Source: Alphaproteobacteria bacterium
GTDB taxonomy: Bacteria; Pseudomonadota; Alphaproteobacteria; Caulobacterales; Aquidulcibacteraceae
Assembly (NCBI GenBank): GCA_016124255.1
Contig: WGOB01000031.1
Coordinates: forward strand, 1-46,519
Reading direction: 5' to 3'
Length of the DNA: 46,519 bases
Shown here in pieces: positions 28,931 through 46,409 of the stretch. The first letter of the stretch is position 1; the number at the start of each line of letters is the position of its first letter. A model generated the notes under the pieces. It saw nothing but the letters and a program-made list of their open reading frames with translations, made no database searches and was not told the origin of the DNA. The position numbers and the translations under genes were made by a program.

Positions 28931-30862
28931 ATGAACATCGTCATCCTCGCCGGGATCCTCGTCACACTCGTGACGATCATTCCGGTCCTGATCCAGTTGC
29001 GGAACCATCCCCGCGGGCTTGTGATCCTGTTCTTCGCCGAGATGTGGGAGCGCTTCTCATTCTACGGCATGCGCGGGCTGCTGATTTTCTATCTGACGCA
29101 GCACTTCCTGTTCAGCGATCGGTTCAGCCAGGGACAGTACGGCTCCTATTTGTCGATGACATACCTGATGCCGCTGCTTGGCGGCATCATCGCTGACCGC
29201 TGGCTCGGCACACGCAAAGCGATCGCGTTCGGCGCGCTTCTATTGGTGGCCGGCCACTTCCTGATGGGCGTTGAGCAACAGCCCGCCACGCAAGTCCTCA
29301 CCTACCAGGGCGCCCAATACGAGTTCGTCGCCGAAGGCCGGATGAACGACCGCGAAGTGCAGCTGATGGTCGATGGACAGGGCTACCAGGTCGGACCCGC
29401 CGACGGCGGCGGCATGGCGATCGTCGGGCTGCCGGCCGGCGCGTCGCTGCCGCAGACGCTGCCCACGGGCAGCTACGAATTGTCCGTAACCGGACAAGAT
29501 CCATTCTTCATCATGGTGTTCTATCTGGCGCTGTCGCTGATCATCATGGGCGTCGGCTTCCTGAAGCCGAACATCTCCACCATCGTCGGCCAGCTTTATG
29601 GCGAGAAGGATCCGCGGCGCGATCCCGGCTTTACCCTCTACTATTATGGCATCAATCTCGGGGCGTTCTGGGCCTCGATCCTGTGCGGTTATGTCGGCCA
29701 GACGATCGGCTGGTGGGCGGGCTTCGGTCTCGCTGGCGTCGGCATGGCGCTTGGCTGGATCGTCTTCATGCTCGGCAAGCCATTGCTCGAAGGCAACGGC
29801 GAGCCGCCCGAGCCGGAGAAGCTGCGCCAGCCCGTGCTCGGCCCGCTCAACCGAGAGGTCGTGATCTACGCCTTCGGGATCGCCTGCGTGTTCGCCGTGT
29901 TCGCCATCCTGCGCCTCGACGCAGTTGTGCGCGATTGGATCGCCACCGCCATCGCGGCGCTGCCGAAGAACGAAGCCGGCGAACCGATCATGACGCTGGG
30001 GCTAGGCGCGGCGAACTTCTTCGCCGTCGTCGGCGGCGCTTTGGCGATCGGATCGATCGCAGTTCTGGCGTACCTCTTCTGGTTCATGGCGGCCAAATGC
30101 GAGAAGGTCGTGCGCGAGCGGATGACTCTGGCGCTGATTCTTATCGCCGCCTCCGTCGTGTTCTGGACCCTCTTCGAACAGGCGGGCTCTTCGCTGAACC
30201 AGTTCGCCGAACGCAACACGCAGTTGCAGATCTGGCCGACCGAGACGCTCAATGTCATGGGCCTGTCGATCGACATGAGCTTCGCGGCGGCGCAGGCGCA
30301 GAGCTTCAACGCCGGCTTCATCCTCATCTTCGCGCCTGTGTTCTCAGCCCTCTGGGCGTTCCTGGAGAAGCTGCGGCGCGATCCCAACGACACCCTCAAA
30401 TTCGCGCTGGCGCTGATCCAGGTCGGGCTCGGCTTCATGGTGCTCGTCTATGGCGCGCAATTCGCCAGCGACGATTACCGCGTGCCGCTGATCTTCCTGG
30501 CGCTCGCCTATCTCCTGCACACGACGGGCGAGCTTTGCCTCTCGCCGGTCGGCCTTTCCATGGTGACGAAGATGTCGGCTGCAGCGGTGGTCTCCACGAT
30601 GATGGCGGTCTGGTTCTTGTCGAGCGCCTGGGCGCAATGGCTGGGCGGGCTGATCGCCCAGCTGACCGCGAGCGAGACGGTGGCTGGCCAAGTGCTCGAT
30701 CCCGCGCGCGCCCTGGCGACGTACAACAGCGTCTTCCAGACCATCGGCCTTTGGTCGATCGGCATTGGGGTCGGGCTTGGACTGCTCTCGTTCTGGCTTA
30801 ACAAGCTGGCGCACGATGAAGCGCGCGGCGGCGATCGCAGCCAGGAGGTCCCTGCCGAATAG
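28931..30862 (+). CDS. POT-family proton-coupled peptide transporter with extra periplasmic domain
   Basis: POT/PTR2 carriers import di- and tripeptides with protons across the inner membrane. The 643-residue product has the family signatures AEMWERFSFYGMR (36-48), GGIIADRWLGTRK (84-96) and FTLYYYGINLGAF. It is longer than most bacterial members (about 450-520) for two reasons. There is an extra hydrophobic segment at residues 3-21, and about 75 soluble, strand-rich residues (114-190) lie between the third core helix and the next, on the expected periplasmic side. A GGGGGAGC precedes the ATG, but it can pair with upstream CCCCC. A nested hairpin follows the stop. No peptidase gene adjoins. 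Confidence 0.92.
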   Translation: MNIVILAGILVTLVTIIPVLIQLRNHPRGLVILFFAEMWERFSFYGMRGLLIFYLTQHFLFSDRFSQGQYGSYLSMTYLMPLLGGIIADRWLGTRKAIAFGALLLVAGHFLMGVEQQPATQVLTYQGAQYEFVAEGRMNDREVQLMVDGQGYQVGPADGGGMAIVGLPAGASLPQTLPTGSYELSVTGQDPFFIMVFYLALSLIIMGVGFLKPNISTIVGQLYGEKDPRRDPGFTLYYYGINLGAFWASILCGYVGQTIGWWAGFGLAGVGMALGWIVFMLGKPLLEGNGEPPEPEKLRQPVLGPLNREVVIYAFGIACVFAVFAILRLDAVVRDWIATAIAALPKNEAGEPIMTLGLGAANFFAVVGGALAIGSIAVLAYLFWFMAAKCEKVVRERMTLALILIAASVVFWTLFEQAGSSLNQFAERNTQLQIWPTETLNVMGLSIDMSFAAAQAQSFNAGFILIFAPVFSALWAFLEKLRRDPNDTLKFALALIQVGLGFMVLVYGAQFASDDYRVPLIFLALAYLLHTTGELCLSPVGLSMVTKMSAAAVVSTMMAVWFLSSAWAQWLGGLIAQLTASETVAGQVLDPARALATYNSVFQTIGLWSIGIGVGLGLLSFWLNKLAHDEARGGDRSQEVPAE

Positions 30863-30901
30863 CGCGCCGCGTGTGCGCTCCCCGATTGGGGCGCGGCGCG
30901 C
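30862..30901 (+). terminator. Nested GC-rich hairpin after peptide transporter
   Basis: Outer arms GCGCGCCGC (30862-30870) and GCGGCGCGC (30893-30901) enclose an inner CCCC-gatt-GGGG hairpin. It begins on the last base of the transporter stop codon. No T-tract follows, so terminator function is probable but not certain. Confidence 0.45.
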
Positions 30902-30961
30902 CGCATTCTGGCGTCAGCCGGCCGCGATTGCTTACTAGATCATGACCTCGGCGCACGTTTC

Positions 30962-30974
30962 GGGCATCGTGCCC
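30962..30974. repeat. Small palindrome upstream of VirD4-like gene
   Basis: GGGCA-tcg-TGCCC lies 26 bases before the VirD4-like ATG. The same core, on the other strand, is in the REP-like element at 18338-18354. It may be a REP remnant or a regulatory site. Confidence 0.35.
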
Positions 30975-31000
30975 TCTCACCCGCCGGCCAGGAGCCCCGC

Positions 31001-32395
31001 ATGACGAAGAAACGAACCCGCACTCCCGCGAAATCGGCGCCCGCCGGTTCGCCAGGCGGGTTCGAATTGCTGCTCGGCTGGCGCCAGGACGACGCCAAGG
31101 ACCCCATCGGCTTTGGCGCGCCCCGCGCAGCGCCGCTGGAAGCGCCCGCGGAAGCGCCGCTGCTCTACGGCGAGGACCGCCACCTTGTGACGATTGCGCC
31201 CACTGGCGCAGGCAAGGGCCGCGGCGTCATCATCCCCAACCTCCTGCGCTTCGAAGGCTCGGTGATCGTCATCGACCCCAAGGGCGAAACATGGCACGTC
31301 ACGCACCGCCGTCGCCGCGAAATGGGCCAGGAAGTGCGCCTCCTCGATCCCTTCGGCGCGGTCTCGCGGCGCACGGACAGCCTCAATCCATTCGATCTCT
31401 TCGATCGTCCCGGCGCGCTGCTCGACGCCGACGCGGAAATGCTCGCGTCCTTGCTGGCGGGCGACGCCGGCTTCCACAAGGAGCCGTTCTGGGACAATTG
31501 GGGCCGCTCGCTCATGGCCGGTGTGATCGCCGGCGTAGCCGAGACGGCCGGTGCCGGCGAACGCCACTTCGGCAAGGTCCGCGAACTGATGATGAGCGAC
31601 GACGCGGTCTACAACCTCGCCGCGCTCCTCGATCAGAACCCCGAGATCAACCGGCTCTCGAAACAGAACATCTCAAGCTTCCTGCCGATCACCGAGCAAA
31701 CCCGTTCCGGGATCCTGTCCACCGCGCAGAGCTATCTGAAGGTCGTCAATTCCGATTCCGCGTTGCGCTCGCTCTCGCGCTCGACGATCGATCTGGGCGC
31801 GGTGCGGCGCGGCGATCCGATGACGATCTACATCGTCATCCCGCCTGACAAGCTGGAGAGCCACGGCGCTTTGCTGCGCCTCTGGGTCGGCGCTCTGATG
31901 CTCACGGTGATGGGCCGACGCAAGCGCCCGAAGCGTTCCACGCTCTTCCTCCTCGATGAATGCGCGCAGCTCGGCGAGTTCGGCCCGCTCCGCCAATCCA
32001 TGACGCTCCTGCGCGGCTACGGGCTGCAGGTGTGGCCGTTCTTCCAGGATCTTTCGCAGCTGCAGCGGCTCTACCCGAAGGACTGGCGCACGATCTTCAA
32101 CAACGCCGGCGTCTTCCAGCTGTTCGGCGTCGCCAACCACCTGATGGCGAAGGAATCGAGCGAACTGATCGGCGATCTCGACGCCGATCTCATCCGCCAC
32201 ATGCCTAAGGATCGTCAGATCATCGCGACCTCGGGCGCCAAGGCGATGAGCGCGCGGCTGGCGGATTACCTTGAGGACAAAGCCTTCAACGGTCTTTGGG
32301 ATCCCAACCCGATGTTCGAGGTCCACGACGCGCCACCGCGTGCGCCGGCGCGCTCGCGCGCCGCGCGCCCAAAACGCGGCGGGCCGGCGCGCTGA
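31001..32395 (+). CDS. VirD4/TraG-like conjugative coupling ATPase, soluble and orphan
   Basis: Coupling proteins of this family are hexameric inner-membrane ATPases that feed DNA-protein complexes into type IV secretion systems. The 464-residue product has a clear TraG/VirD4 core: Walker A APTGAGKGRG (66-75), VIDPKGE (90-96), the block NISSFLPITEQTRSGILS and Walker B TLFLLDECAQLGEFGPL (314-330), with LRGYGLQVWPFFQDLSQL after it. It lacks the N-terminal membrane helices of VirD4; only about 60 mostly Pro/Ala/charged residues precede the ATPase. No relaxase, VirB or pilus gene occurs in the window. AGGAG precedes the ATG with good spacing. The C-terminus is basic (PARSRAARPKRGG), which could bind nucleic acid. 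The frame is intact. Confidence 0.9.
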   Translation: MTKKRTRTPAKSAPAGSPGGFELLLGWRQDDAKDPIGFGAPRAAPLEAPAEAPLLYGEDRHLVTIAPTGAGKGRGVIIPNLLRFEGSVIVIDPKGETWHVTHRRRREMGQEVRLLDPFGAVSRRTDSLNPFDLFDRPGALLDADAEMLASLLAGDAGFHKEPFWDNWGRSLMAGVIAGVAETAGAGERHFGKVRELMMSDDAVYNLAALLDQNPEINRLSKQNISSFLPITEQTRSGILSTAQSYLKVVNSDSALRSLSRSTIDLGAVRRGDPMTIYIVIPPDKLESHGALLRLWVGALMLTVMGRRKRPKRSTLFLLDECAQLGEFGPLRQSMTLLRGYGLQVWPFFQDLSQLQRLYPKDWRTIFNNAGVFQLFGVANHLMAKESSELIGDLDADLIRHMPKDRQIIATSGAKAMSARLADYLEDKAFNGLWDPNPMFEVHDAPPRAPARSRAARPKRGGPAR

Positions 32396-32398
32396 TCT

Positions 32399-33148
32399 CT
32401 ACGTCGCCGCGCGTTTCCTGACTGCCGGACGCAGGAGGTCACGCAGCGAGTCTCGGCCCACCCAGCGCGCAGCCGCGTCGTCCGATTGCGACAACCGCTC
32501 CGCCAGCGCGACGCAACGTCCATGCAGCGCGGTGCGGCGCCCGCCGATGCTGCGCAGCGCCCAGCTCACGCCTTTCTTGACGAAGTTGCGGTCATCACGC
32601 GCGGCGCGTTCGATCAGCTGCAGGCGCGCGGCGAAATCCTTGTCGGCGATGTCCTTGCGATGCAGCGCGACGCTGGCGAGGAGGGCGAACGCGGCGCGCC
32701 GCACGAATTCTTCCGTCCGCGGCGCCCAGGCGTCGACACGCCCAAGCGCGTGCGGCGTGCGGTCGAACAGCGTGAAGCAGAGCGTGTCGCACACGCTCCA
32801 ATTGTCGAAATCCTTGGCCCATCGATCCATCTGGGCGACGGTGACTTTTTCCGGCTCGTCGACCATCGAGGCGAGCAGGCGCGCATCGTAGACGCCCGTT
32901 CGCCACAGCGCCGCGGCGAGCGCATGGTTGCGCCCGACCCCTTTCGCGATCGCCTTGATCTTCGCCATTGGCGCGCCGAACGCCGTCTTGGCGACGATGC
33001 CGTAGCGCGGACCGAGATCGGCGCGGAACTTGGCCGAGCTCTCCCGCTCCAAGCGCCGGATCACGGCGCCGACTTCCGGCGCGCCGCGCGATTGCGGCGC
33101 GGCCGTGCGGGCCGCGCCGGTTGTCTTGGGACGTTTCAGCTTCGCCAT
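32399..33148 (-). CDS. DNA alkylation repair protein, AlkD-like
   Basis: AlkD-type proteins are built of HEAT-like helical repeats and excise positively charged alkylated bases without base flipping. The 249-residue protein matches in helical pattern and in motifs: FGAPMAKIKAIAKG near the start, an MVDEPEKVTVAQMDRWAKDFDNWSVCDTLC segment with the family's WxxxxxxWxxxD spacing, and DDRNFVKKGVSWALRSIG. The catalytic Asp assignment is not secure from reading alone. The first 25 residues are basic and Ala-rich. Its stop is three bases from the stop of the convergent VirD4-like gene. Together with the AlkA-like gene at 19305 it gives two alkylation-repair activities. Confidence 0.88.
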   Translation of the reverse strand: MAKLKRPKTTGAARTAAPQSRGAPEVGAVIRRLERESSAKFRADLGPRYGIVAKTAFGAPMAKIKAIAKGVGRNHALAAALWRTGVYDARLLASMVDEPEKVTVAQMDRWAKDFDNWSVCDTLCFTLFDRTPHALGRVDAWAPRTEEFVRRAAFALLASVALHRKDIADKDFAARLQLIERAARDDRNFVKKGVSWALRSIGGRRTALHGRCVALAERLSQSDDAAARWVGRDSLRDLLRPAVRKRAAT

Positions 33149-33153
33149 ACGCC

Positions 33154-33651
33154 TCAGCGTCTCAATTCGTCGTCGAGAGTGGCGTAGCTCATCTCCATAC
33201 CGTCGGTCATCCCGGTCGACACGGCGGCGTCGCGGGCGGCCTGGGTCTTGAAGTCCATCCGCGACGTGAGCAACGTGCCGCCGTCAATATCTTCGAACGT
33301 CAGCACGATGTCTGCGCCCTCGCCCATATCGCCGCCGACATCGCCGGGATCGTAGAACTCGGTGTGCGCCAGCTTGGCGGCCTCCACGACATCGGTGAAT
33401 GTCCCGTGGAAGCCGAACTCCTTGCCGTCTTCAATGCTGCGCCAGCGATAGCGATAGGCGCCGCCGACGCGCACATCCATCTCGCACACCGGCATCGTCC
33501 AGCCCGGCGGCCCGAGCATCCAGCGCTGCATCAGCGCCGGCGTGACGTGCGCTTTCCAGACAAGCGCGCGCGGCGCAGCGAACGCGCGGCGCACGAGCAC
33601 TTCGCGATCGCTCGGCATGCTCACCTGGGCCTTCTCTCCGATCTTGGCCAT
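33154..33651 (-). CDS. SRPBCC/AHSA1 domain protein
   Basis: The 165-residue product is a START-like SRPBCC (AHSA1) domain, a hydrophobic-pocket fold. It shows VLVRRAFAAPRALVWKAHVTPALMQRWMLGP at the N-terminal side, VCEMDVRVGGAYRYRWR in the middle and a C-terminal helix ending MEMSYATLDDELRR. Such proteins are typically encoded next to an ArsR-type regulator, as here; their ligand is usually unknown. AAGGAGA precedes ATG 33651 and fixes the start. The regulator gene is 32 bases upstream, so the pair is one operon. The protein may bind or transform the compound that controls the regulator, but that is inference. Confidence 0.9.
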   Translation of the reverse strand: MAKIGEKAQVSMPSDREVLVRRAFAAPRALVWKAHVTPALMQRWMLGPPGWTMPVCEMDVRVGGAYRYRWRSIEDGKEFGFHGTFTDVVEAAKLAHTEFYDPGDVGGDMGEGADIVLTFEDIDGGTLLTSRMDFKTQAARDAAVSTGMTDGMEMSYATLDDELRR

Positions 33652-33683
33652 GACGTCTCTCCTTGGGGGCAATCGTTCCCTGC

Positions 33684-34073
33684 TCACGACGGCTTCTTCT
33701 TCCGCCGCGCACGCTTCTTCGCGCCTGCAGCGCGCCGCGGCGTCGCCGCGCGCTGCATCACTTCAAGAAGCGCATCGAGCCGCTGATAGTTCGCCTCCAC
33801 CGCCTCCCGAAACCGCTCGATCCACGCCGCCGCCTCCTGAAGCGCATCCGCTTCGACGCGGCGGGGACGGCGCTGCGCGTCCTGCCCGACCGAGATAAGG
33901 CCCGCGCGCTCCAGCATCTTGAGATGCTTCGAGATCGCCGGCTGCGAGATGTCGAACGGCGCCGCCAGTTCCGCGACCGATGCTTCCCCGGACGCCAGGC
34001 GCGCCAGGATTGCGCGTCGGGTGGGGTCGGCAAGAGCTGCAAAAGCGGCGTCAAGGCGGGAGGAGGCGTTCAT
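33684..34073 (-). CDS. ArsR-family transcriptional regulator
   Basis: This is a winged-helix repressor of 129 residues. The N-terminal FAALADPTRRAILARLASGE and the helix-turn-helix FDISQPAISKHLKMLERAGLI (about residues 40-60) are typical of the ArsR subgroup linked to SRPBCC proteins. There is no CxC metal-binding motif in the recognition helix, so it is unlikely to sense arsenic or other metals directly. The C-terminus after residue 110 is very basic (KKRARRKKK). A perfect 18-base palindrome lies 18 bases before the ATG and is the probable autoregulatory operator. Confidence 0.92.
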   Translation of the reverse strand: MNASSRLDAAFAALADPTRRAILARLASGEASVAELAAPFDISQPAISKHLKMLERAGLISVGQDAQRRPRRVEADALQEAAAWIERFREAVEANYQRLDALLEVMQRAATPRRAAGAKKRARRKKKPS

Positions 34074-34090
34074 CGAAAACTCATCAGGTC

Positions 34091-34108
34091 CATAACTGAT
34101 CAGTTATG
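34091..34108. promoter_or_regulatory. Palindromic operator for the ArsR-SRPBCC operon
   Basis: CATAACTGATCAGTTATG is a perfect 18-base palindrome located 18 bases upstream of the ArsR start. Half-sites of the type ATAAC-n4-6-GTTAT fit ArsR-family operators. It is notably AT-rich for this genome. Its position suggests that the repressor blocks its own promoter. Confidence 0.75.
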
Positions 34109-34193
34109 TAACCGAACGCGACTTGTCAAGCGCCGCCGCGCAGCGGCGCGGCGCGAACGGGCGGTTCAAGAGAATAGCGGGGTCGCGCGCGCC

Positions 34194-36263
34194 CTAGAGC
34201 GTGCCGCTGATCCGCACGCCCCAGAGCGGTCCGAAATTGCGCCGCCGCTCCTCCACGCGGTCGAGCGCCCCGTTGCGGTCGGGCGTGAAGAACCGGCGTT
34301 CGCGCACGAAATCGTTGGCGGTGAGATTGGCGCCGTAGACGCGGATTTTCACGTTGGGAACCGCCGTCGTCTCCACCCAGAGATCGACGAACGGGCCCTC
34401 TTCATACGTGTCGAGTTCATTCAGCCGGTAGGTGACGTTCTCAGCCTCCTTGTAGAAGAAGATCCCCCACGCGAGTTTCTGCGCCGTCAGGTCCTGGCGG
34501 AAATTCCCCTCCACGCGGCTCTGCCGCCAGCCGGAGATGTCGCGGGGCCGGCCGGTCGCGGGATCGGTGACTTCGGACTCTTCCGTCACCGCCGTGAGCG
34601 TCAGCCGCGAATGCGGGAGGAGGAAGCCCAACGGGATCGTCGCGTTGAGCTCCAGCCCCTGCAGCCAGCCGTCGCCGATATTGCCCGGCGCATCGAATTG
34701 CATGCCGGGCGGCCCGACCGGCACCACGTCGCTTGCGTCCTCAAGCCAGTGGCGATAGGCGCGCAGCGAGATCGCGCCGTCCCCGCCATAGCGCCAGTCC
34801 CCCGCCGCCTCGAGCCGCCACGACGTCTCAGGACGCAGATTGGGATTGCCGCCGAACACAATGTCGTCGGCAAGACCGGCCGCGGAAACGAAGTCGCCGA
34901 AGTCGAGCTGATCCACGTCGCGGTAGAAGCGCACGCGCACTTGGTTGCGCGCCCCGATGCGCCGCGTCGCCTGGATCGACGGCTTGATGTAGGCGAGCTC
35001 GGTTTCGAGATTGGTGTCGCCGGTCTGGGTCAGCGTCGAAGTCTCGCCCGCGAGCGTTGCATCGATCGTCCAGCGTGGGCTGGGCCGCACGACGAGCGTG
35101 GCGAACGCTTCCGCGCGTTCTTCCTCAACCAGCACGTTGGCCGAAGGCAACGGCACCGGCACGGGCCCGGCGCCCAGATCTTCGGTCAACGCGAGCCCCG
35201 CGTCGAGCGAGTTGAACGCAGCCTCCCCGCCGATATCGAAACGCGCATAGGGCGCAAGCGGCCATGAAAGCGTCCCGCGCAGAATCGTTTCGCCCGACTC
35301 GTTGCGGCGCACCTGCGCAAGTTCGCCGAGAAACGCGCCGGCCTCGTCGCGGAAGGCGGTGGACTCGTCGGTGTTATAGTTCCGGCGTGTCGCCAGCCCG
35401 ATGAGCTCCAGGTTCACGCGCCCGAAGCTGCGGTCGAAATTGAACCCAACCTCTTCGGTCTGTTCGCGCTCGTGAAAGTCGAACACGAAATCGTCGGTTG
35501 GCGCGCCCGCCGGGTTGAAGCTGGGCGACCACAACACGGTTTGGAAGTCCCAGTACGCGATCTGGCCGTTGACGCGCAACGACCCGCCCGCGAGCGGAAA
35601 TGTCATGTCGCCGTTGGCGGAATCCTCGAAATAGGTGCGCGGCGTGATGTCGTCGCGGCGCTGGATGAGCCCGCCTGCGCTGTCGCGGACGGTGCGGCCC
35701 CCGTCGAGCGGCCGATATTCGCTGTAGTGCGAGGCGCCGACCGAATAATCGAGCTGACCGAAACGACCCGACCAGGACGCCTCGCCGCGCGGCATGTAGC
35801 GGGGCCCTTCCGTGCCTTGAACCTCCGCCTCCCAAACGCCGCTGCCGCCGCTGGGCGTGCGCACCACGTTCACCAGGGTCGATTGGCCGGCTGCGTCCGC
35901 CGTGTCGGCTGCGTCGCGGATCAGCTCGATGTGCGCGACCTGGGACGCCGGAATCCGCGAGAGAATCGAGGACAGGCTTTGGCTTTTGGCGCTCGGGCGG
36001 CGCCCGTCGATGAGCACGTTGCCGACAGCGCCCGAGAACCCGCGGCGATCATCGCCTTCGTCGAGTGTGAAGCCGGGCACGCGCGCGACCATGTCGTTGG
36101 CGGTCTGCGGCGCAAAGCGTGCGAAGAACGCGCCGTCATAGATCACACGGCCATCGGCGCTCGGCGCTGGGCTTTGCGGCGCAGGCGCCGCCTCTTCCGC
36201 CGGCGCCTCCTCGGCGAACGCGGCGCCCGCCGTCGCCAGCAGCATCAAGACGGACCTCTTCAC
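34194..36263 (-). CDS. TonB-dependent receptor
   Basis: This is an outer-membrane beta-barrel of 689 residues for energy-dependent import. GTG 36263 starts a standard signal peptide (KRSVLMLLATAGAAFA) and is preceded by GGGAG; the frame upstream lacks coding character. A plug domain spans about residues 35-140 (NDMVARVPGFTL, GNVLIDGRRPSAKSQSLSS, IPASQVAHIELIRD), followed by a barrel ending GPLWGVRISGTL. The terminal residue is Leu, where Phe or Trp is usual for barrel insertion. I see no clear TonB box. Its substrate (siderophore, sugar, peptide or other) is unknown. No linked regulator or inner-membrane transporter is next to it; the ArsR gene lies 120 bases downstream. Confidence 0.9.
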   Translation of the reverse strand: MKRSVLMLLATAGAAFAEEAPAEEAAPAPQSPAPSADGRVIYDGAFFARFAPQTANDMVARVPGFTLDEGDDRRGFSGAVGNVLIDGRRPSAKSQSLSSILSRIPASQVAHIELIRDAADTADAAGQSTLVNVVRTPSGGSGVWEAEVQGTEGPRYMPRGEASWSGRFGQLDYSVGASHYSEYRPLDGGRTVRDSAGGLIQRRDDITPRTYFEDSANGDMTFPLAGGSLRVNGQIAYWDFQTVLWSPSFNPAGAPTDDFVFDFHEREQTEEVGFNFDRSFGRVNLELIGLATRRNYNTDESTAFRDEAGAFLGELAQVRRNESGETILRGTLSWPLAPYARFDIGGEAAFNSLDAGLALTEDLGAGPVPVPLPSANVLVEEERAEAFATLVVRPSPRWTIDATLAGETSTLTQTGDTNLETELAYIKPSIQATRRIGARNQVRVRFYRDVDQLDFGDFVSAAGLADDIVFGGNPNLRPETSWRLEAAGDWRYGGDGAISLRAYRHWLEDASDVVPVGPPGMQFDAPGNIGDGWLQGLELNATIPLGFLLPHSRLTLTAVTEESEVTDPATGRPRDISGWRQSRVEGNFRQDLTAQKLAWGIFFYKEAENVTYRLNELDTYEEGPFVDLWVETTAVPNVKIRVYGANLTANDFVRERRFFTPDRNGALDRVEERRRNFGPLWGVRISGTL

Positions 36264-36641
36264 ACAGCGCTCCCCTCGCGCGGGCCATATCGAAAAACGA
36301 AACATGTTTATTGAAAAACGGCGAAAACCGGGCGCGGCCTTCACCGTTCGTCGCAAACACGCCCTCACCGCTCATGGGCCTTGTTGTGCGGAGATGCGCG
36401 CGGTCTCGCCTGTGGATGCGTCGTCGTCGCCGCGGGCGGCAGCGGCGTGAGCGTTCAGCGCGCGCGATTGTTGCGGAGTCGGCGTAACGCGTCGAAAGCG
36501 GACGGCGTGAAGCGTGGCGGCGCAGGCGGGTCGTGCCCCAGCGAGTCGAACCAGCGAGTCGGGCGGTGCGTCCGCAAAGAGAAACGCCGCGGGGTCTCCC
36601 CCGCGGCGTTCCCAAACTCAACTTCGCTTTCGCGAAGCGGC
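36264..36641. other. Intergenic region upstream of TonB-dependent receptor
   Basis: This 378-base stretch holds the receptor's leader and presumed promoter, on the minus strand near 36270-36330, where the sequence is AT-richer (runs such as GTTTTTC). It also holds a direct repeat of CCAGCGAGTCG (36538-36548 and 36551-36561) and the terminator of the microprotein gene at 36583-36610. I found no tRNA fold or supported reading frame in it. Confidence 0.5.
36583..36610 (-). terminator. Intrinsic terminator of the Lys/Ala microprotein gene
   Basis: A perfect 12-pair stem, AACGCCGCGGGG and its complement around a TCTC loop on the plus strand, lies 31 bases beyond the microprotein stop. Read on the minus strand it is followed by TCTCTTTG, a partial T-tract. 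It is the strongest intrinsic terminator candidate in the window. Confidence 0.72.
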
Positions 36642-36719
36642 CTACTTCTTCTTCTTCGCGGCCTTCTTCGCGGCAGGCTTTGCGGCCTTCTTCGCGACTT
36701 TCTTCTTTGCAGCAGCCAT
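36642..36719 (-). CDS. Lys/Ala-rich 25-residue microprotein, histone H1-tail-like
   Basis: The minus strand encodes a 25-residue peptide, beginning MAAAKKKVAKKAAK and ending in KKKK, with 12 Lys and 10 Ala. Such AKK-type repeats resemble the C-terminal tails of histone H1 and of bacterial H1-like proteins and would bind DNA or RNA electrostatically; this is inference from composition. GGGGAGC lies about seven bases before the ATG, and a strong terminator follows, so the unit looks like a complete small gene. An inverted repeat, GTGAGT-gacg-ACTCAC, sits upstream at 36740-36755. It lies 76 bases downstream of tldD on the same strand. It is too short for routine gene calling. Confidence 0.68.
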   Translation of the reverse strand: MAAAKKKVAKKAAKPAAKKAAKKKK

Positions 36720-36739
36720 CGTTATTGCTCCCCGAAATG

Positions 36740-36755
36740 GTGAGTGACGACTCAC
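36740..36755. promoter_or_regulatory. Inverted repeat upstream of microprotein gene
   Basis: GTGAGT-gacg-ACTCAC lies 20 bases upstream of the microprotein ATG, in the gap between it and tldD. It may be an operator or an mRNA leader hairpin. No assigned regulator. Confidence 0.4.
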
Positions 36756-36795
36756 GTATCTAATGAGAGTCGCGAAAAGTAAACTGTGCGAAGCT

Positions 36796-38214
36796 TCACG
36801 CGCCGCCGATTGTCAGACCAGTGATGTAAAGCGACGGCTGTCCCACGCCCACCGGCACGCTCTGTCCGCCCTTGCCGCACGTGCCCACGCCTTCGTCCAG
36901 CTTGAGATCGTTGCCCACCATCGTGACGCGCGTGAGCGCGGAGGGGCCGTCTCCGATCAGGGTCGCTCCTTTGATCGGCGAAACGATCGCGCCGTTCTCA
37001 ACGAGATACGCTTCGGTGCATTGGAACACGAACTTGCCGGACGTGATGTCCACCTGGCCCCCGCCAAAGTTCACCGCGTAGACGCCGCGCTTAAGGCTGG
37101 CGAGGATCTCAGCCGGCTCATGCGCGCCCGCGGCCATGAAGGTGTTGGTCATACGCGGCATCGGGCGATGGGCGTAGGATTCGCGGCGGCCGTTGCCGGT
37201 CGGCGCCACGCCCATCAGCCGCGCATTCATGCGATCCTGCAAATACCCTTTCAAAACGCCGTTTTCGATGAGCACGGTGCGTCCGGTCGGGGTGCCTTCA
37301 TCATCGATCGTGAGCGAGCCGCGGCGGTTCTCGAACGTCCCCTCGTCGATCACGGTGACGCCGGGCGAGGCGACCCGCTCGCCGATCTTGCCGGCGAAGG
37401 CGGAGGTTCCCTTGCGGTTGAAATCGCCTTCAAGGCCGTGGCCCACCGCCTCGTGCAGCAACACGCCCGGCCAGCCGGGACCCAACACGACGTCCATCTC
37501 GCCCGTCGGCGCAGGTACGGCGTCGAGGTTCACAAGCGCGATCCGCAACGCTTCGTCAGCCAAAGCTTTCCACCGCTCGGGCCGAATGAAAACATCATAG
37601 GCCTCGCGTCCGCCTGCGCCCGCGGAGCCGGACTCGCGGCGTCCGTCGCGCTCCACCGTGATCGACACGTTCACGCGCACCAGCGGCCGCGCGTCCTCGT
37701 AGCGTGCGCCATCGGGCCGCAGGATCGTGACGCCGCGGCGCGAGCCCGCGAGCGACGCCGCCACCTGCACCACGCGCGGATCCTTCGCGCGCGCATAGGC
37801 GTCGATCTCCGCGAGCAAAGCGGTCTTGTCAGTGAACGCAGGCGCTTCAAGCGGATCGAGATCGGCGTAGAGCTTGCGATTCGTCCGGGGCGGTGCGGCG
37901 TCCAAGACCCCTTCGCCGCCGCGCTTCACACTCGCCGCAGCGTCCGCCGCACGCGCGATCGCGTCGGTGTCGAACACGCTCGCGTGCCCATATCCAGCGC
38001 GCTCGCCGCTCACCACACGCAGTCCGAAGCCCTGCGTGGCGTCATAAGAGGCTGATTTCAGACGGCCGTCGTCCCACAGAAACGATTCCGAGCGGCTGTC
38101 TTCAACGAAGAGCTCCGCGTCGTCGGCGCCATGCGCCGCGTCCGCCAGAATTTTCTCAGCCGCGCCCCAGTCCAGTTCCGCGGCTTTTTCCGCCGCGCTC
38201 ACGCCATCCGCCAT
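36796..38214 (-). CDS. tldD: TldD metalloprotease subunit
   Basis: TldD is the zinc-binding half of the TldD/TldE heterodimeric protease. The 472-residue product is of normal length and has the zinc motif HEAVGH (254-259) in LLHEAVGHGLEGDFNRKG. Further family blocks are NGRRESYAHRPMPRMTNTF and, near the C-terminus, GTCGKGGQSVPVGVGQPS, whose Cys is expected to be the further zinc ligand. AAGGAG precedes ATG 38214. Its partner gene (pmbA/tldE) is at 13983-15332. The M23 peptidase gene lies 66 bases upstream on the same strand and may be in the same transcript. Confidence 0.95.
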   Translation of the reverse strand: MADGVSAAEKAAELDWGAAEKILADAAHGADDAELFVEDSRSESFLWDDGRLKSASYDATQGFGLRVVSGERAGYGHASVFDTDAIARAADAAASVKRGGEGVLDAAPPRTNRKLYADLDPLEAPAFTDKTALLAEIDAYARAKDPRVVQVAASLAGSRRGVTILRPDGARYEDARPLVRVNVSITVERDGRRESGSAGAGGREAYDVFIRPERWKALADEALRIALVNLDAVPAPTGEMDVVLGPGWPGVLLHEAVGHGLEGDFNRKGTSAFAGKIGERVASPGVTVIDEGTFENRRGSLTIDDEGTPTGRTVLIENGVLKGYLQDRMNARLMGVAPTGNGRRESYAHRPMPRMTNTFMAAGAHEPAEILASLKRGVYAVNFGGGQVDITSGKFVFQCTEAYLVENGAIVSPIKGATLIGDGPSALTRVTMVGNDLKLDEGVGTCGKGGQSVPVGVGQPSLYITGLTIGGA

Positions 38215-38280
38215 GTCGGCTCCTTGAGAAATTGGGCTCGTTCAGGATGCACATAGGAAGTCTGCACCTTCGGCGCCGGC

Positions 38281-39306
38281 CTACGTACCGCTCGCCAGCG
38301 CGCGCCGCGCCTCGGCAAGGCCGAGGATGGCGAAGGCGGGGTCGAGATTGCGGTCCCGCCACTTGAGCCGCCAGCACAGATGCGGACCAGTCGTACGCCC
38401 GCTCGAACCGACCGCGCCGATCACCTGCCCCTGCGTGACGGCGTCGCCGGCGCGCACATCGAGCCGGCTCATGTGCAGATACATCGAGATCAGGCCCTGG
38501 CCGTGATCGATGAGAACGAGGCCGCCCTCGAAATGCAGATCCGGTTCCGCCAAGGACACCACGCCGCCGGCGGGCGCGCGGATCGGCGTGCCGGTCGGCA
38601 TGGCGATATCGACGCCGTAGTGTGGGCTCCGCGGCTCCCCGTTGAGCACGCGCTGATTGCCCCAGGACGAGGAGATGCGCCCTTCCACCGGCCACCTGAA
38701 CCCGTCGAGCCAGCCTTCCGCGTTGGCGCGCGATGCGAAGCCGACGTTCTTGATATCGCGCTCGCGCGCAATGCGGGCGAGCACCGCCGGGTCGGTCGGC
38801 GTCACCGTCTGCGGCGGCAGGCCGTCCACGCGCTGCACATCGAACGAACGCGGCAGGATCACGAACGACTCGCGCGCCGCAGCGGCGCCCGCGCGCGCCT
38901 CAACAACGCTCTCGCCGGGCGAATCGCGATCGAAGCCGATGACGGCCCAGCCGTTGGCGTCGGCTGCGCCGCGATCGGCGCCGTCGACGACGATGCGCGC
39001 GCCTGGCTGCGTCCGGCAGAGCGCGGCGCCGCCTTGTTGAAACGCCCCGGCGCAGCGAAGCGTAAGGTCGCGCGGCGCGGGGCTTGCCCCGATCGGCTGC
39101 AGCGTCGGCGCGGCGACTGCGTCGGTGTGGCCGGCGGCCAGCGGCTGCGCCACCGTGGGATCAAACACCGGCGCGGTCGCCGCCGGCGGAGGCGCGGGCG
39201 CGGGCGTCTCCACGATCGGTTCTGCAACGGGCTGGGGCTCAGGCGGCGTCTCCGCCGCAGCGCAACCTGCGAGCGCGATCAGCGCCGCCGCGAGCAACCG
39301 CTTCAT
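38281..39306 (-). CDS. M23 family metallopeptidase lipoprotein
   Basis: This is a LytM/M23-type peptidoglycan endopeptidase homologue of 341 residues. The lipobox LAGC (Cys15) indicates a lipoprotein. A Pro/Ala linker and an uncharacterised middle region precede the M23 domain (about 205-320): HYGVD (His229, Asp233), YLHMS (His278) and GPHLCW (His309, then Cys311). In active enzymes the last motif is HxH, with the second His a zinc ligand; here it is Cys, which may still bind zinc. GGAGGTG fixes ATG 39306, which overlaps the DUF2093 stop by four bases. It may cut peptidoglycan or act as a regulator of amidases. Confidence 0.9.
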   Translation of the reverse strand: MKRLLAAALIALAGCAAAETPPEPQPVAEPIVETPAPAPPPAATAPVFDPTVAQPLAAGHTDAVAAPTLQPIGASPAPRDLTLRCAGAFQQGGAALCRTQPGARIVVDGADRGAADANGWAVIGFDRDSPGESVVEARAGAAAARESFVILPRSFDVQRVDGLPPQTVTPTDPAVLARIARERDIKNVGFASRANAEGWLDGFRWPVEGRISSSWGNQRVLNGEPRSPHYGVDIAMPTGTPIRAPAGGVVSLAEPDLHFEGGLVLIDHGQGLISMYLHMSRLDVRAGDAVTQGQVIGAVGSSGRTTGPHLCWRLKWRDRNLDPAFAILGLAEARRALASGT

Positions 39307-39518
39307 GGCTTCACCTCCAGCGCGCGCCAGCGCTGCATCGCTTCCTCCGGGCCGCGATAGGCTTCCTGCAGGTCCACGTTCCAATAGCGCAGTTCATCGA
39401 GCGGGATATGCGCCCCGCTCACCGCGCACCGGACATAATAGCCCTGCCGGAGGATGGTGAAATCGTTGTCCTCGTACCGAAGCACCGCCTCCGGCCCGCC
39501 GAGCTCATGTTTGTTCAT
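39303..39518 (-). CDS. DUF2093 protein
   Basis: The 71-residue product belongs to DUF2093, a short alphaproteobacterial family without known function. It contains EAVLRYEDNDFTILRQGYYVRCAVSGAHIPLDELRYW as its core and ends in a helix with GPEEAMQRWRAL. The compact strand-rich core with one Cys gives no catalytic hint. Its gene lies between xseA (37 bases upstream) and the M23 peptidase gene (four-base overlap), all on the minus strand, so xseA-DUF2093-M23 probably form an operon. In other alphaproteobacteria DUF2093 genes are often near lpxK, a link not seen here. Confidence 0.9.
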   Translation of the reverse strand: MNKHELGGPEAVLRYEDNDFTILRQGYYVRCAVSGAHIPLDELRYWNVDLQEAYRGPEEAMQRWRALEVKP

Positions 39519-39555
39519 CGCGATCGCCTTTGGCCGATTCTACGTCTGCAGGAGC

Positions 39556-40950
39556 TTAGAACAAGGACCCTTGGCCGCCGCCGTCCTTCCGGGTCGGCTT
39601 CTTGCGGTCCCCCCCGATCGTGGCGGGCGCCTCGCCGTCGGCGAACGTCAGCGACACCGCATCGCCGGACGCCAGATCCTTCGCCGCCCGCACCAGCTTG
39701 CCGTCGCGCTGCACCATTGCGAAGCCGCGCGCGAGCGTCGCCTTGTGCGAGAGCGTTTCCAGCATGCGCGCGCACGCCTCCAGCGCGTCGCGCTTCTGCT
39801 TCAGCATCCGCGTCGCAGCGTGGCCGAGACGCGTGACTTGCTCAGCGAGCCGCTCGCGGCGCTTGGCGACGTCTCGGGTCAGCGCGTCGGGCCGCAGCCG
39901 CCCGGCGATGCGGTCGAAACTTGACTGCGCGGCGCGCACATTGGCCCGCAGCGCATAGCCGAGCTTGTCGCCGACGCGATCGAGCCGTTGCTGCGCCGGG
40001 CCGAGCAGCGTCTCCGGCCGCGGCAAACGCGCGGTGATTGCACGCAGATGCGCCCGGCGCAGATCGACGCCGCGGACAAGGCCCGTGCCAAGCCGCGCGC
40101 CGAGCGTGCTCACGCGCTCGATCAGTTCGGCCCGCACCGGCACCGCGCGCTCGGCCGCGGCGGTGGGCGTGGGCGCGCGCAGATCGGAGGCGAAGTCGAT
40201 CAGCGTCGTATCCGTCTCGTGGCCCACCGCGGAGATCAGCGGGATCACGCTCGCGGCTGCGGCGCGCACCACCGGCTCTTCGTTGAACGCCCAAAGATCT
40301 TCGATCGAACCGCCCCCGCGCGCCACGATCAGCACATCGGGGCGGATCTCGCCTTCGAGTGCATTGAAGCCGCGGATGGCGTTGGCGATTTGCGCAGCGG
40401 CGTACTCGCCCTGGACCAGCACCGGCCAGAGAATCACACGCCGCGGAAACCGCTCCTCCAACCGATGCAGGATGTCGCGGATCACGGCGCCGGACGGCGA
40501 CGTCACCACCCCGATCACCCGCGGCAACATCGGGATAGGCTTCTTCCGGGCGCTGTCGAAGAGCCCCTCCGCCGCGAGGCGCGCCTTCAGTTTCTCCAGC
40601 TGCGCCAGCAACGCGCCGACGCCGGCGGGCTCGAGACGATCCGCAATCAACTGATACTGCGAGCGCCCGGGGAAAGTCGTAAGGCGGCCCTCGGCGATCA
40701 CCTCAAGCCCTTCCTCCGGCTTGAACTTCAAGTGCTGGACATTCGATTTCCACATCACCAGGGAGAGAGCCGCCTGGTCATCCTTCAGATCGACGTAGAG
40801 ATGGCCCGACCGCGCAATCAGCGTACGCCCCAATTCGCCGCGCACGCGCACGCGCTCGAAACTGCTTTCCATCGTGCGCTTCACCGCCTGGGCGAGCTCC
40901 GAGACGGAGAGCTCCGGCAGATTGGAGACGGCGGGGGCGGAATCGGCCAT
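39556..40950 (-). CDS. xseA: Exodeoxyribonuclease VII large subunit
   Basis: XseA with the small subunit XseB degrades single-stranded DNA in both directions in mismatch and recombination repair. The 464-residue protein has an N-terminal OB-fold (about 10-105; VRGELGRTLIARSGHLYVDL, FPGRSQYQLI), the catalytic core with GVVTSPSGAVIRDI, ARGGGSIEDLWAFN and SAVGHETDTTLIDF, and a long coiled-coil region. The last 20 residues are Gly/Lys-rich and end QGSLF. ATG 40950 was chosen; another in-frame ATG lies at 40959, and neither has a strong Shine-Dalgarno. It is divergent from purD over about 100 bases. xseB is not in the window. Confidence 0.95.
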   Translation of the reverse strand: MADSAPAVSNLPELSVSELAQAVKRTMESSFERVRVRGELGRTLIARSGHLYVDLKDDQAALSLVMWKSNVQHLKFKPEEGLEVIAEGRLTTFPGRSQYQLIADRLEPAGVGALLAQLEKLKARLAAEGLFDSARKKPIPMLPRVIGVVTSPSGAVIRDILHRLEERFPRRVILWPVLVQGEYAAAQIANAIRGFNALEGEIRPDVLIVARGGGSIEDLWAFNEEPVVRAAAASVIPLISAVGHETDTTLIDFASDLRAPTPTAAAERAVPVRAELIERVSTLGARLGTGLVRGVDLRRAHLRAITARLPRPETLLGPAQQRLDRVGDKLGYALRANVRAAQSSFDRIAGRLRPDALTRDVAKRRERLAEQVTRLGHAATRMLKQKRDALEACARMLETLSHKATLARGFAMVQRDGKLVRAAKDLASGDAVSLTFADGEAPATIGGDRKKPTRKDGGGQGSLF

Positions 40951-41056
40951 GGCTCTCATATAGGCGACTCGCGCCCCGCAATCGCCTGTCGCCCCCACCT
41001 GCGCTTGCGCGCGGGGCGCTTCTAGCCCACCCCTTCGCCAGGACGAGTCGCAAGCC

Positions 41057-42334
41057 ATGAAGGTTCTGATTGTCGGCGGCGGCGGACGCGAGCATGGGCT
41101 CGGCTGGAAGCTTGCGCAAAGCCCGCTGGTGGAGGCGGTCATCGCCGCGCCGGGCAATCCGGGGCTGGCCGACCTCGGGCGTTGCGCGCCGGTCAAGGCT
41201 GAGGACGTGGCAGAGATCGCCGCCCTCGCCGTGCGCGAACAGATAGGGCTCGTCGTGATCGGGCCCGAGGCGCCGCTGGCGGCGGGGCTCGCAGATCGGC
41301 TGGCGGCCGTGGGTGTGCCGGTGTTCGGACCCAGCGCGGCGGCAGCCGAACTCGAATCCTCAAAAGCATTCTCCAAGGAATTCTGCGCCCGCCACGCCAT
41401 CCCGTCCGCCGGCTACAAAGTCTTCGACGACGCCGTGCGCGCCAAAGCCTATCTCGGCGAACGCGAGCCGCCATTCGTCATCAAGGCCGACGGCCTCGCG
41501 TCGGGAAAGGGCGTCGTCATCGCCGAGACCCGCGCAGAGGCGGACGCGGCGGTCGATCAGATCCTGTTCCTGCGCAAGTTCGGCACGGCGGGACAGCGCA
41601 TCGTGATCGAGGATTTTCTGCCCGGCGAGGAAGCGAGCTTCTTTGCGCTCTGCGACGGCGAGACGGCGATGCCGCTGATCGCGGCGCAGGATCACAAGCG
41701 CGCGTTTGACGACGACAAAGGTCCCAACACTGGCGGCATGGGCGCCTACAGCCCCGCGCCGGTCTTCACCGATGCGGTCCGCGATCAGACGATGGAGCGG
41801 ATCATCCTGCCGGCGGTGCGCGGCATGAAGGCCGAAGGACGCCCATTCAAGGGCGTGTTGTTCGCCGGCCTGATGATCAGCGCCGACGGGCCCAAGCTCA
41901 TCGAGTTCAATGTCCGCTTCGGCGATCCCGAATGCGAAGTGCTGATGCGCCGGCTCAAGAGCGATCTCGCGCCGCTCCTGCTCGCATGCGCTGAGGGGAC
42001 GCTTGCGGCCGCGCCGCCGCCGGACTGGGATCCGCGCCCCTGCGCGACCGTGATCTTCGCCGCCAACGGCTACCCCGACGAGCCGCTGACCGGGTCGGTT
42101 GTTCGCGGCGTGGAGCGCGCCGATGCGGTTGAAGATGTCGTCGTCTTCCACGCAGGCACCCGCCGTGACGAGGACGGCCTCCTCCGCGCCAACGGCGGAC
42201 GCGTGCTGGCGGTCACCGCGCTCGGCGACACCCTCGCGCACGCCCTCGCCGGCGCCTATCACGCGCTCGAACGGATCGACTGGCCCGGCGGCTTCTACCG
42301 TCGCGATATCGGCTGGCGCGCGCTGAAGCGCTGA
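41057..42334 (+). CDS. purD: Phosphoribosylamine-glycine ligase (GAR synthetase)
   Basis: PurD is an ATP-grasp enzyme that joins phosphoribosylamine and glycine in purine synthesis. The 425-residue protein has the N-terminal KVLIVGGGGREHGLGWKL, the ATP-grasp core with FVIKADGLASGKGVVIAE, EDFLPGEEASFFALCDG, and the PurD signature FNVRFGDPECEVLM. It ends with the typical RRDIGWRAL. The length is standard. The divergent arrangement with xseA is common in alphaproteobacteria. The ATG at 41057 follows AGGACGAG at moderate distance. Confidence 0.96.
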   Translation: MKVLIVGGGGREHGLGWKLAQSPLVEAVIAAPGNPGLADLGRCAPVKAEDVAEIAALAVREQIGLVVIGPEAPLAAGLADRLAAVGVPVFGPSAAAAELESSKAFSKEFCARHAIPSAGYKVFDDAVRAKAYLGEREPPFVIKADGLASGKGVVIAETRAEADAAVDQILFLRKFGTAGQRIVIEDFLPGEEASFFALCDGETAMPLIAAQDHKRAFDDDKGPNTGGMGAYSPAPVFTDAVRDQTMERIILPAVRGMKAEGRPFKGVLFAGLMISADGPKLIEFNVRFGDPECEVLMRRLKSDLAPLLLACAEGTLAAAPPPDWDPRPCATVIFAANGYPDEPLTGSVVRGVERADAVEDVVVFHAGTRRDEDGLLRANGGRVLAVTALGDTLAHALAGAYHALERIDWPGGFYRRDIGWRALKR

Positions 42335-42366
42335 CGCCGCCGCCGCTTGCCCTCCACGCGCGAGCG

Positions 42367-42378
42367 TTCTTTAAAGAA
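42367..42378. promoter_or_regulatory. Palindrome before phosphotransferase gene
   Basis: TTCTTTAAAGAA is a perfect 12-base AT-rich palindrome ending 16 bases before the ATG at 42395 and just before its GGAGGA. It could be an operator overlapping the promoter of this gene. No regulator gene adjoins, so identity is open. Confidence 0.35.
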
Positions 42379-42394
42379 GGGCGGAGGAACGCCC

Positions 42395-43489
42395 ATGGCC
42401 GAACCGGCCCAAGACGAAACGGTTGACGCACAGGAAGCGTTTTCCGGAACTAAGCCCGTCGAAGAGCGCCATCGCATCGACGAAACCGCCTTGACCCGTT
42501 GGCTGGAGGCGAACGTCGAGGGCTTCGGGGGCCCACTCGAAGTGCGCCAGTTCAAGGGCGGCCAATCGAACCCGACCTACCAATTGGTGACGCTCGCGCG
42601 GAAATATGTCCTGCGCCGTAAGCCGCCGGGGAAATTGCTCCCCTCCGCGCACGCCGTCGACCGCGAGTTCAAGGTGATCTCGGCGCTCCATCCTACCGGC
42701 TTTCCGGTTGCGCGGCCCTATGGTCTGTGTACGGACGAAAGCGTCATCGGCACGATCTTCTACGTCATGGACAATGTGGAGGGCCGCATCCTGTGGGACG
42801 GCTCCCTGCCGGACTCCACGCCCGACGAACGACGCAGGATTTACGAAGCCAAGTGCAAGACGCTCGCGCAGCTGCACACCACCGACTATAAGGCCGTAGG
42901 CCTCGAGGATTTCGGCAAGGCCGGCTCTTATTTCGCCCGCCAGATCAGCCGCTGGACAAAGCAATACCAACTCTCCGAGACCATGACGATTCCGGAGATG
43001 AACAAGCTGATCGACTGGCTGCCCAAGACCATTCCGCCCGGCGAGACGACAACGATCGTGCACGGCGATTATCGCTTGGACAACATGGTGCTTCACCCGA
43101 CCGAACCGCGCGTCCTCGCCGTGCTCGACTGGGAGCTGTCCACGCTCGGCGATCCGCTGGGCGATTTCACCTATCATCTGATGAACTGGGTGATGGGCGC
43201 CAACCAGCGTTCCGGGCTCGCCGGCCTCGATTTGCCCGCAATGGGCATCCCGACGATGGACGAATACGTCGCCCTCTACTGCAAGCACACCGGCCGCGAC
43301 GGCATCGCCCACCTCGAGTGGTACTTCGCCTACAATATGTTCCGCCTCGCCGGCATCCTGCAGGGCATCGTCGGCCGCGTCCGTGACGGCACCGCAGCCA
43401 GCGCGCATGCTGAAGCCAACGCCGAGCGTGTCGTCCCGCTCGCGCAGGCGGCGTACGCATTTGCGCTGAAGGCCGGCATGCCGGCCTGA
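42395..43489 (+). CDS. Phosphotransferase family protein (APH/ACAD10-type)
   Basis: The 364-residue protein has the aminoglycoside phosphotransferase/choline kinase fold: catalytic loop HGDYRLDN (223-230) and metal-binding LDWE (244-247), with a lysine-containing YVLRRKPPGKLL in the N-lobe. It is closest in style to the domain found at the N-terminus of the eukaryotic acyl-CoA dehydrogenase ACAD10/ACAD11, where it phosphorylates hydroxyacyl-CoA before dehydration. In bacteria such genes often accompany acyl-CoA dehydrogenases, but none is in this window. GGAGGA sets ATG 42395. Antibiotic resistance is unlikely given this subgroup. A 12-base palindrome precedes the gene. Confidence 0.87.
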   Translation: MAEPAQDETVDAQEAFSGTKPVEERHRIDETALTRWLEANVEGFGGPLEVRQFKGGQSNPTYQLVTLARKYVLRRKPPGKLLPSAHAVDREFKVISALHPTGFPVARPYGLCTDESVIGTIFYVMDNVEGRILWDGSLPDSTPDERRRIYEAKCKTLAQLHTTDYKAVGLEDFGKAGSYFARQISRWTKQYQLSETMTIPEMNKLIDWLPKTIPPGETTTIVHGDYRLDNMVLHPTEPRVLAVLDWELSTLGDPLGDFTYHLMNWVMGANQRSGLAGLDLPAMGIPTMDEYVALYCKHTGRDGIAHLEWYFAYNMFRLAGILQGIVGRVRDGTAASAHAEANAERVVPLAQAAYAFALKAGMPA

Positions 43490-43502
43490 TCAGCGCTGCA
43501 CC

Positions 43503-43979
43503 ATGAACGAACGGCAGCGCGATCTTTTTCTGTGGCTGTGGAGCCGCAGGCGTGCGCGCGGGCGCATGGGGGCAGCCATCGTCGGCGCCCTGATCGGCCT
43601 CGCCGGCGGCCTTGTCTTCACCGTGCTGTTCTTCGGTCTGCCGGAAATGGCCGGCCAATCAGTCGGCGAACTCAACACCGACGAGATGAGCCCGTTCACC
43701 ATCGCCATCGCCAACCAGCTCGGTCCCCGCGGATTTGTCTTGCTGCTCGCGGGAGGGCTCTTCGGGCTCCTTGGCGCAGGCCTCGCATGGCGCGTCTACG
43801 GCATGCAGGAAGGGCAATACCAGGCCCTTCTCGCCCAAGGCGCGCGCGTGCCTGCGGCGCGCCCGCACCTGCGTTTCTCCGATCGCGCGCCCCTCTTCGC
43901 AGTGTTCGCGGTCGTCGCCGCCATCGCGATCTTCCTCATTGTCATGCTCGTGATCGAGTTCGGCCGCGGCGGGCTCTAG
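43503..43979 (+). CDS. Three-helix membrane protein, unknown
   Basis: The 158-residue protein has a basic N-terminus (WSRRRARGR), then hydrophobic helices at about 22-45, 76-97 and 128-152, and no recognised domain. The arrangement predicts the N-terminus in the cytoplasm and the C-terminus in the periplasm. It lies 13 bases after the phosphotransferase stop in the same orientation, so co-transcription is likely, although no functional link is evident. The Shine-Dalgarno is weak (no clear AGG before ATG 43503), which makes the start less certain than the frame. Confidence 0.75.
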   Translation: MNERQRDLFLWLWSRRRARGRMGAAIVGALIGLAGGLVFTVLFFGLPEMAGQSVGELNTDEMSPFTIAIANQLGPRGFVLLLAGGLFGLLGAGLAWRVYGMQEGQYQALLAQGARVPAARPHLRFSDRAPLFAVFAVVAAIAIFLIVMLVIEFGRGGL

Positions 43980-44083
43980 TCTCAAGGTTCGGGGCGAATT
44001 TCTGAATCGCCGCACGCGATTGACGCCGCCGCCCGGGCCGGGACAGAGTGCGCGCCAACGGAAGAAGTCCGCGAGGGGAAACG

Positions 44084-45385: not shown

Positions 45386-45424
45386 AAGCTTGCTCGGCAG
45401 CGCGGCGCGCCGCATGCAACGGCG

Positions 45425-46378: not shown

Positions 46379-46409
46379 GACGAGGCGCGGGACTTGCAGC
46401 GCGTGGGCG

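Follow-up and report, generated by a model that had tools for sequence, protein, structure and literature searches.

Here, we describe a gene of 25 codons, located behind tldD on the minus strand of the window (the whole stretch of 46,519 nucleotides that was analysed), whose product is rich in Lys and Ala. At the level of sequence, we showed that the gene occupies a conserved place, that its frame is under coding selection, and that it comes with its own Shine-Dalgarno (SD) sequence, a promoter-like block, a terminator and a CcrM site in the leader, while the encoded peptide is highly charged. Our overall reading, which we consider to have about the same chance of being right as of being wrong, is that the gene is a free-standing unit for an unfolded, strongly cationic microprotein, resembling an H1-type tail without a globular domain, that would bind DNA and be under GcrA/CcrM control.

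The microprotein frame and its surroundings

The peptide starts with Met and continues in runs of Ala and Lys. It contains 12 Lys, 10 Ala, one Val and one Pro, with no acidic and no aromatic residues, which confirms the 25-residue Lys/Ala frame (12 Lys, 10 Ala) claimed in the preliminary description. Among the 358 short ORFs (15–80 aa) of the window, it is extreme: 12 Lys fall within 25 residues, as against 4 in the runner-up. The frame is read from an ATG to a TAG and lies 76 nt past the tldD stop codon; the features of the locus are collected in Table 1. No Pfam family matched the microprotein at E values up to 10 and no NCBIfam family at E values up to 1, although such models detect 25 low-complexity residues poorly. 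No description of the gene was found in a literature search, which had most subscription papers outside its reach.

Table 1. Features at the microprotein locus (positions in the window)
Feature	Position	Strand	Remarks
TonB-dependent-receptor-like gene, downstream neighbour	34194–36314	-	NCBIfam, Pfam
Intrinsic terminator, 12-pair stem, GAGA loop, T-rich tail	36576–36610	-	conserved with covariation
Small hairpin directly past the stop codon	36622–36639	-	form in the window; most relatives have a stop-spanning hairpin instead
Lys/Ala-rich microprotein reading frame, 25 codons	36642–36719	-	orthologues and purifying selection
Shine-Dalgarno GGGGAG (most relatives GGGGAGG)	36728–36733	-	8 nt before ATG
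Inverted repeat GTGAGT-CGTC-ACTCAC	36740–36755	-	not conserved as a repeat
GANTC site 2, GAGTC, within TGAGTCG	36749–36753	-	fits the extended GcrA motif YGAKTCK
-10-like TAGATA	36757–36762	-	15 nt after the -35-like hexamer; putative
GANTC (CcrM) site 1, GACTC	36767–36771	-	between the -35-like and -10-like elements
-35-like hexamer TTTACT	36778–36783	-	putative promoter role
tldD, upstream neighbour	36796–38214	-	NCBIfam TldD, E 2.6e-172; Pfam

Conservation behind tldD

A protein search with the peptide gave hits in only 3 of 61 genomes, of which one was due to chance, and a profile built from 30 rows found only 18 of 60. These similarity searches failed, probably because the scoring penalises sequence of low complexity, so we used synteny with tldD instead. 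(A start-codon pattern search, of whose matches a part was read, also drew unrelated frames, by eye a ribosomal protein L30, a glycosylase and chance frames.) Sought in 101 related genomes, tldD had a match in 98. The stretch downstream of it was read in 90 genomes and, separately, in G074, G075, G082 and G083; five genomes of the order (G048, G052, G055, G060 and G099) fall outside this reading.

All 33 loci whose TldD is at least 80.3% identical (L004–L036) carry the microprotein frame. It lies within 72–148 nt of tldD in 32 of them, one being frameshifted, and in the remaining locus (G066) about 2.3 kb further on, beyond two inserted genes that by eye look like those of a secreted protein and an alpha/beta-hydrolase (L206, G066:C82). 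The four genomes read separately, with partial tldD or contig ends, also have the frame, which is thus found downstream of tldD in 37 genomes from four genera of the family (three in g1, one in g8, three in g9 and 30 in g11). G002, also of g1, gave no tldD match, and its locus was not readable. By their names, the genomes of the clade belong among metagenome assemblies of Hyphomonadaceae/Caulobacterales, with Terricaulis as the label of one, and wherever the place downstream of tldD is readable in these genomes the frame is there. No frame was seen within 700 nt in the 57 loci of lower identity (L037–L093), three of which had less than 400 nt downstream; the nearest of them is in G016, whose TldD is 79.5% identical in the locus alignment and 81% in the initial search. 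As similarity searches miss such sequence, a copy could lie elsewhere in those genomes.

Two of the 38 copies are damaged, by sequencing error or by decay: L010 (G068) is frameshifted and L208 (G075) reads beyond the usual stop. G068 also has an unlinked second cassette (G068:C1; locus L211 1–1501, L343), encoding 23 aa, with two GANTC sites and its own terminator, so that in this genome the tldD-linked copy is frameshifted while an unlinked copy is present. Since the FecR-like gene beside the second copy is also split over two frames, assembly indel errors may explain the frameshift.

Selection on the coding frame

In 54 equal-length pairs, pS was 0.42 and pN 0.069, with differences at the three codon positions of 132/73/433, i.e. 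an excess at the third, these pairs having been picked at ≥70% amino-acid identity, which favours low pN. In 49 pairs picked by DNA identity, pN/pS was 0.156 for the coding frame. The two remaining forward frames gave 2.8 and 2.7, and the reverse frames 1.6, 0.24 and 8.0; we read the low reverse value of 0.24 as belonging to the frame where silent positions coincide. All nine substitutions between L019 and L020 are silent, and the start codon and SD are kept in relatives. Over the 36 rows used for the peptide and the terminator (the set leaves out L010 and L208), the length is 21–41 residues and the number of Lys 10–15, and Asp plus Glu is zero in every row. Charge and composition, rather than exact sequence, seem to be the selected property. 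The conservation with synonymous bias that had been proposed as a check is therefore seen in relatives (pN/pS 0.16), and the 25-codon frame is, on this comparison of codons, almost certainly a real protein-coding gene.

The leader, the terminator and RNA structure

At the position of the -35-like hexamer, most relatives of g1, g8 and g11 have TTTACA, TAGACA or TAGACT. Most g11 leaders read TTTACA-N7-GAATCG-N2-GCAGA, then GGGGAGG and ATGGCTGC, and the leaders of g1 and g8 are related forms with TAGACA, TAGACT or TTTACT; those of g9 and of the second copy in G068 have a form unlike that of g11. The block TTTACNNTTNNNNGAATCGNNGCAG, drawn from these leaders, had one match each in 25 of 60 family genomes, all at the cassette, and its reversed control pattern had no match in the 60. 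In G066 the block stays beside the frame although two genes part the frame from tldD. Because the block moves with the frame in G066, and because the second copy in G068 is unlinked, we regard the microprotein gene as very probably an independent transcription unit. The preliminary description of a self-contained gene thus held up, in that the gene is found after tldD in relatives at a pN/pS of 0.16 and has its own promoter block, SD and terminator; the SD it had named is present as well. The upstream inverted repeat that it also reported is perfect in this genome but is not the conserved signal. By eye, it is kept only partly in L005 and L007 of the same genus and is missing from the leaders of other genera, and the element common to relatives within this region is the GANTC site. 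We dropped the repeat as an operator, since it is not kept in relatives.

In the terminator stem, 11 of the 12 consensus pairs are formed in 31–36 of the 36 rows, and the final one is formed in 27; the pairs exchange among G-C, C-G, A-T, T-A and G-T. A terminator with a conserved stem therefore does stand behind the gene, as had been claimed, but its rank as the best intrinsic terminator in the window was not confirmed: a consensus terminator scan of 30000–46519 did not list it. The stretch 36570–36770 folds with a z of -4.35, none of 200 shuffles being as stable. In 30 of the 36 rows the stop codon sits within a hairpin of at least five pairs (for example GAAGAAG-TAAG-CTTCTTC), with z against shuffled downstream letters of +0.4 to -5.5, and by eye the downstream arm is altered to match in rows that end in Arg. 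In 26 of 36 rows at least four of the five SD bases are paired in a hairpin, a count made without a shuffled control and on which no claim rests.

Such strong structure, together with the hairpin kept at the stop codon in most rows, would also be expected if a small RNA with strong hairpins were the functional product and the frame incidental. We consider this very unlikely, since most changes affect third codon positions and preserve the peptide, the start codon and SD are retained, and a search of the window against Rfam at gathering thresholds returned nothing.

GANTC sites and possible GcrA/CcrM control

At least one GANTC site is present in all 38 leaders (37 linked ones and the second copy in G068), which are related and hence not 38 independent cases, compared with 15% of random 75-nt stretches from the same loci, a baseline that mixes coding and intergenic DNA. 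Among the 16 palindromes of the form XYNY'X', GANTC alone is present in every leader. Its middle base varies by lineage (30 GAATC, 8 GAGTC, 7 GACTC and 3 GATTC), while the site itself is kept. In g1 and g11 it lies, as we read these leaders, between the -35-like and -10-like elements. Counting both strands, 35 of the 38 leaders fit the extended motif YGAKTCK, whereas for the GANTC sites of these loci at large the figure is 107 of 312, and GANTC occurs in only 3 of 32 cases in the 75 nt beyond the terminator.

The genome encodes a CcrM-like ORF (E 2.7e-160 to 6pbd) and GcrA (E 2.8e-48 to 7ye1); a second GcrA match has an internal stop. CcrM methylates GANTC, and GcrA reads the site. On a methylated promoter of Caulobacter, the stretch from -35 to -10 is protected by GcrA, and several promoters of this bacterium were weakened by 60–80% once their GANTC had been mutated to GCNTC (accessible part of PMC3667746). 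According to the accessible part of PMC7987155, which gives YGAKTCK as the extended GcrA motif, the presence of GANTC is by itself little indication that GcrA is in control, intergenic GANTC is enriched in general, and no preference for the extended motif was found in Brevundimonas. Our locus resembles the Caulobacter GcrA/CcrM promoters of mipZ, podJ and ctrA (P1) in having GANTC in the promoter of a genome with both regulators, but here the control is predicted from sequence, and GANTC by itself is no proof. Taking these points together, we think it somewhat more probable than its opposite that the microprotein gene is under GcrA/CcrM control.

In 23 of 29 loci, the 75 nt that precede the nominal start of tldD hold a GANTC as well. 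This applies to most of g11 (e.g. L008, L014 and L028) and to g9, and not to the window, g1 or g8. In the g11 and g9 loci that have this upstream site, tldD may be under CcrM control too.

The genes downstream

All 28 loci checked (27 genomes, G010 counted twice) have a relative of the TonB-receptor-like gene downstream, and in 25 of them, the window included, a co-directional receptor-like frame starts within 600 nt of tldD; the other three are g9 loci. Owing to this constant neighbour, the strongest rival to our reading is that the frame encodes the leader peptide of an attenuator, in which the ribosome on the Lys/Ala codons would set terminator formation and thereby control the receptor-like gene. 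The layout of a short frame rich in one residue, a terminator and a conserved co-directional receptor gene fits, and a possible Thr/Lys leader peptide, SEP5, is known from Sinorhizobium (accessible part of PMC10117765). Attenuator leader peptides share with our cassette the short frame followed by a terminator, but they need a co-directional next gene, and in four cases the cassette has none directly behind its terminator. Three of these cases are the g9 genomes, whose next gene is convergent and encodes about 280 aa (by Pfam a methyltransferase in both of those searched); the fourth is the second copy in G068, beyond which convergent frames for FecR-like and sigma-factor proteins stand. Moreover, the hairpin at the stop codon shares no sequence with the terminator and hence would not itself act as an antiterminator, and in L126 a related receptor gene lies 112 nt after tldD with no microprotein frame found. 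We rejected the attenuator on the four cases, and hold it to be improbable, though slightly less so than an RNA product.

By eye, g11 relatives (e.g. L023) have repeated CGTCGC/TCGTCGCA words in common in the stretch from the terminator to the receptor gene (36314–36575 in the window); they are perhaps the receptor gene's own operator. The preliminary description had mentioned neither the downstream receptor-like gene nor the GANTC site, the stop-codon hairpin and the frames in other families described below.

Possible partners and role of the microprotein

Judged by its composition, the microprotein is probably disordered. In composition it matches the Lys/Ala-rich tails by which H1-like proteins (AlgP, PhaF, Hc1 and Hc2) are recognised. 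AlgP (AlgR3) and PhaF of Pseudomonas are likewise Lys/Ala/Pro-rich, disordered and H1-tail-like, but AlgP carries a repeat tail of 154 residues behind a helical N-terminal domain, whereas the microprotein has 21–41 residues and no other domain. Chlamydial Hc2 and the C-terminal tail of eukaryotic histone H1 are also alike in composition. Hc2 varies in size with the number of its lysine-rich pentamers (accessible part of PMC2848022), and its 165–237 residues are far from the microprotein, which no Pfam model matches. We do not assign the microprotein to the AlgP, Hc1/Hc2 or H1 families, since no model matches it and its DNA binding is only predicted.

We argue that GcrA, together with RNA polymerase, would start transcription at the methylated GANTC promoter, tying synthesis of the microprotein to the cycle of replication and methylation. 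The peptide would then bind polyanions by its charge, DNA first, and could help to neutralise and compact the newly replicated chromosome in the manner of the Lys/Ala/Pro tails of AlgP, PhaF or H1. The role in nucleic acid binding or chromosome compaction suggested earlier is consistent with the composition, and KPAA-repeat peptides of AlgP bind DNA in vitro (accessible part of PMC9239181). We give DNA an even chance of being the main partner.

As charge alone cannot choose among polyanions, the main partner could instead be RNA, the ribosome or polyphosphate, making the peptide a ribosome-associated basic peptide or an organiser of polyphosphate granules. AlgP, with its KPAA tail, sits on polyphosphate granules (accessible part of PMC9239181). 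The microprotein, however, is nearly all Lys in its basic residues, with at most two Arg, and has no fixed core motif beyond Lys/Ala. Folded small ribosomal proteins differ from such a near-pure Lys composition without a core motif. We judge these other polyanions unlikely as the main partner, at about half the weight we give to DNA. A short cationic peptide might also be secreted or membrane-active, as an antimicrobial or a small toxin, but none of the 36 rows contains Leu, Ile, Phe, Trp or Tyr, so that a hydrophobic segment able to enter a membrane or to serve as a signal peptide is lacking; of all the readings considered, we find this the least credible.

If the preferred reading of a DNA-binding microprotein is true, a protein that binds polyanions such as the chromosome has here been reduced to its bare tail, outside the Pfam and NCBIfam models. 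If GcrA reads the methylated GANTC promoter, the methylation state of DNA would be linked to the supply of a chromosome-binding polycation. H1-tail microproteins, if widespread, would have been overlooked owing to their shortness. Synteny and codon statistics can bring such Lys-rich microproteins to light, even though trypsin would destroy them and similarity searches give them low scores.

Similar frames in other alphaproteobacteria

A fixed start pattern had matches in 99 of 385 genomes of the class. Of about 137 listed matches, 70 were read, a non-random set of which 30 were delivered automatically and 40 picked by hand. Of these 70, 21 are short frames that encode 16–49 residues with at least 30% Lys and have what looks by eye like a purine-rich SD; they come from 19 genomes in nine families outside the order. 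Eight of the 21 carry a GANTC in the 100 nt before the frame. Random stretches of that length from Terricaulis-like loci do so in 20% of cases, so the excess is only suggestive. In family f9 the frames of three genomes have GANTC at -39, -39 and -47. These frames may be homologues of the microprotein or independent inventions. We tentatively propose, as a possibility we would not yet favour, that Alphaproteobacteria repeatedly use free-standing H1-tail microproteins of 16–50 residues, gated by CcrM/GcrA in the Terricaulis-like clade and perhaps elsewhere, so that a pulse of polycation would reach the chromosome at a fixed point in the cell cycle.

Short Lys/Ala-rich frames that start with MAAKKK and have their own SD were seen in nine other families of Alphaproteobacteria (loci L271, L272, L281, L282, L303, L305, L307–L314, L318–L320, L322, L329, L332 and L335), and several of them are, by eye, common to species with a nearly identical leader. 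A plasmid search with the region of one related frame found nothing. At L186 1501–3017, a UvrA frame (Pfam) is extended at its N terminus by a Lys-rich stretch, MATKKKALTKKTALTKK, and GANTC occurs three times within 120 nt upstream of it.
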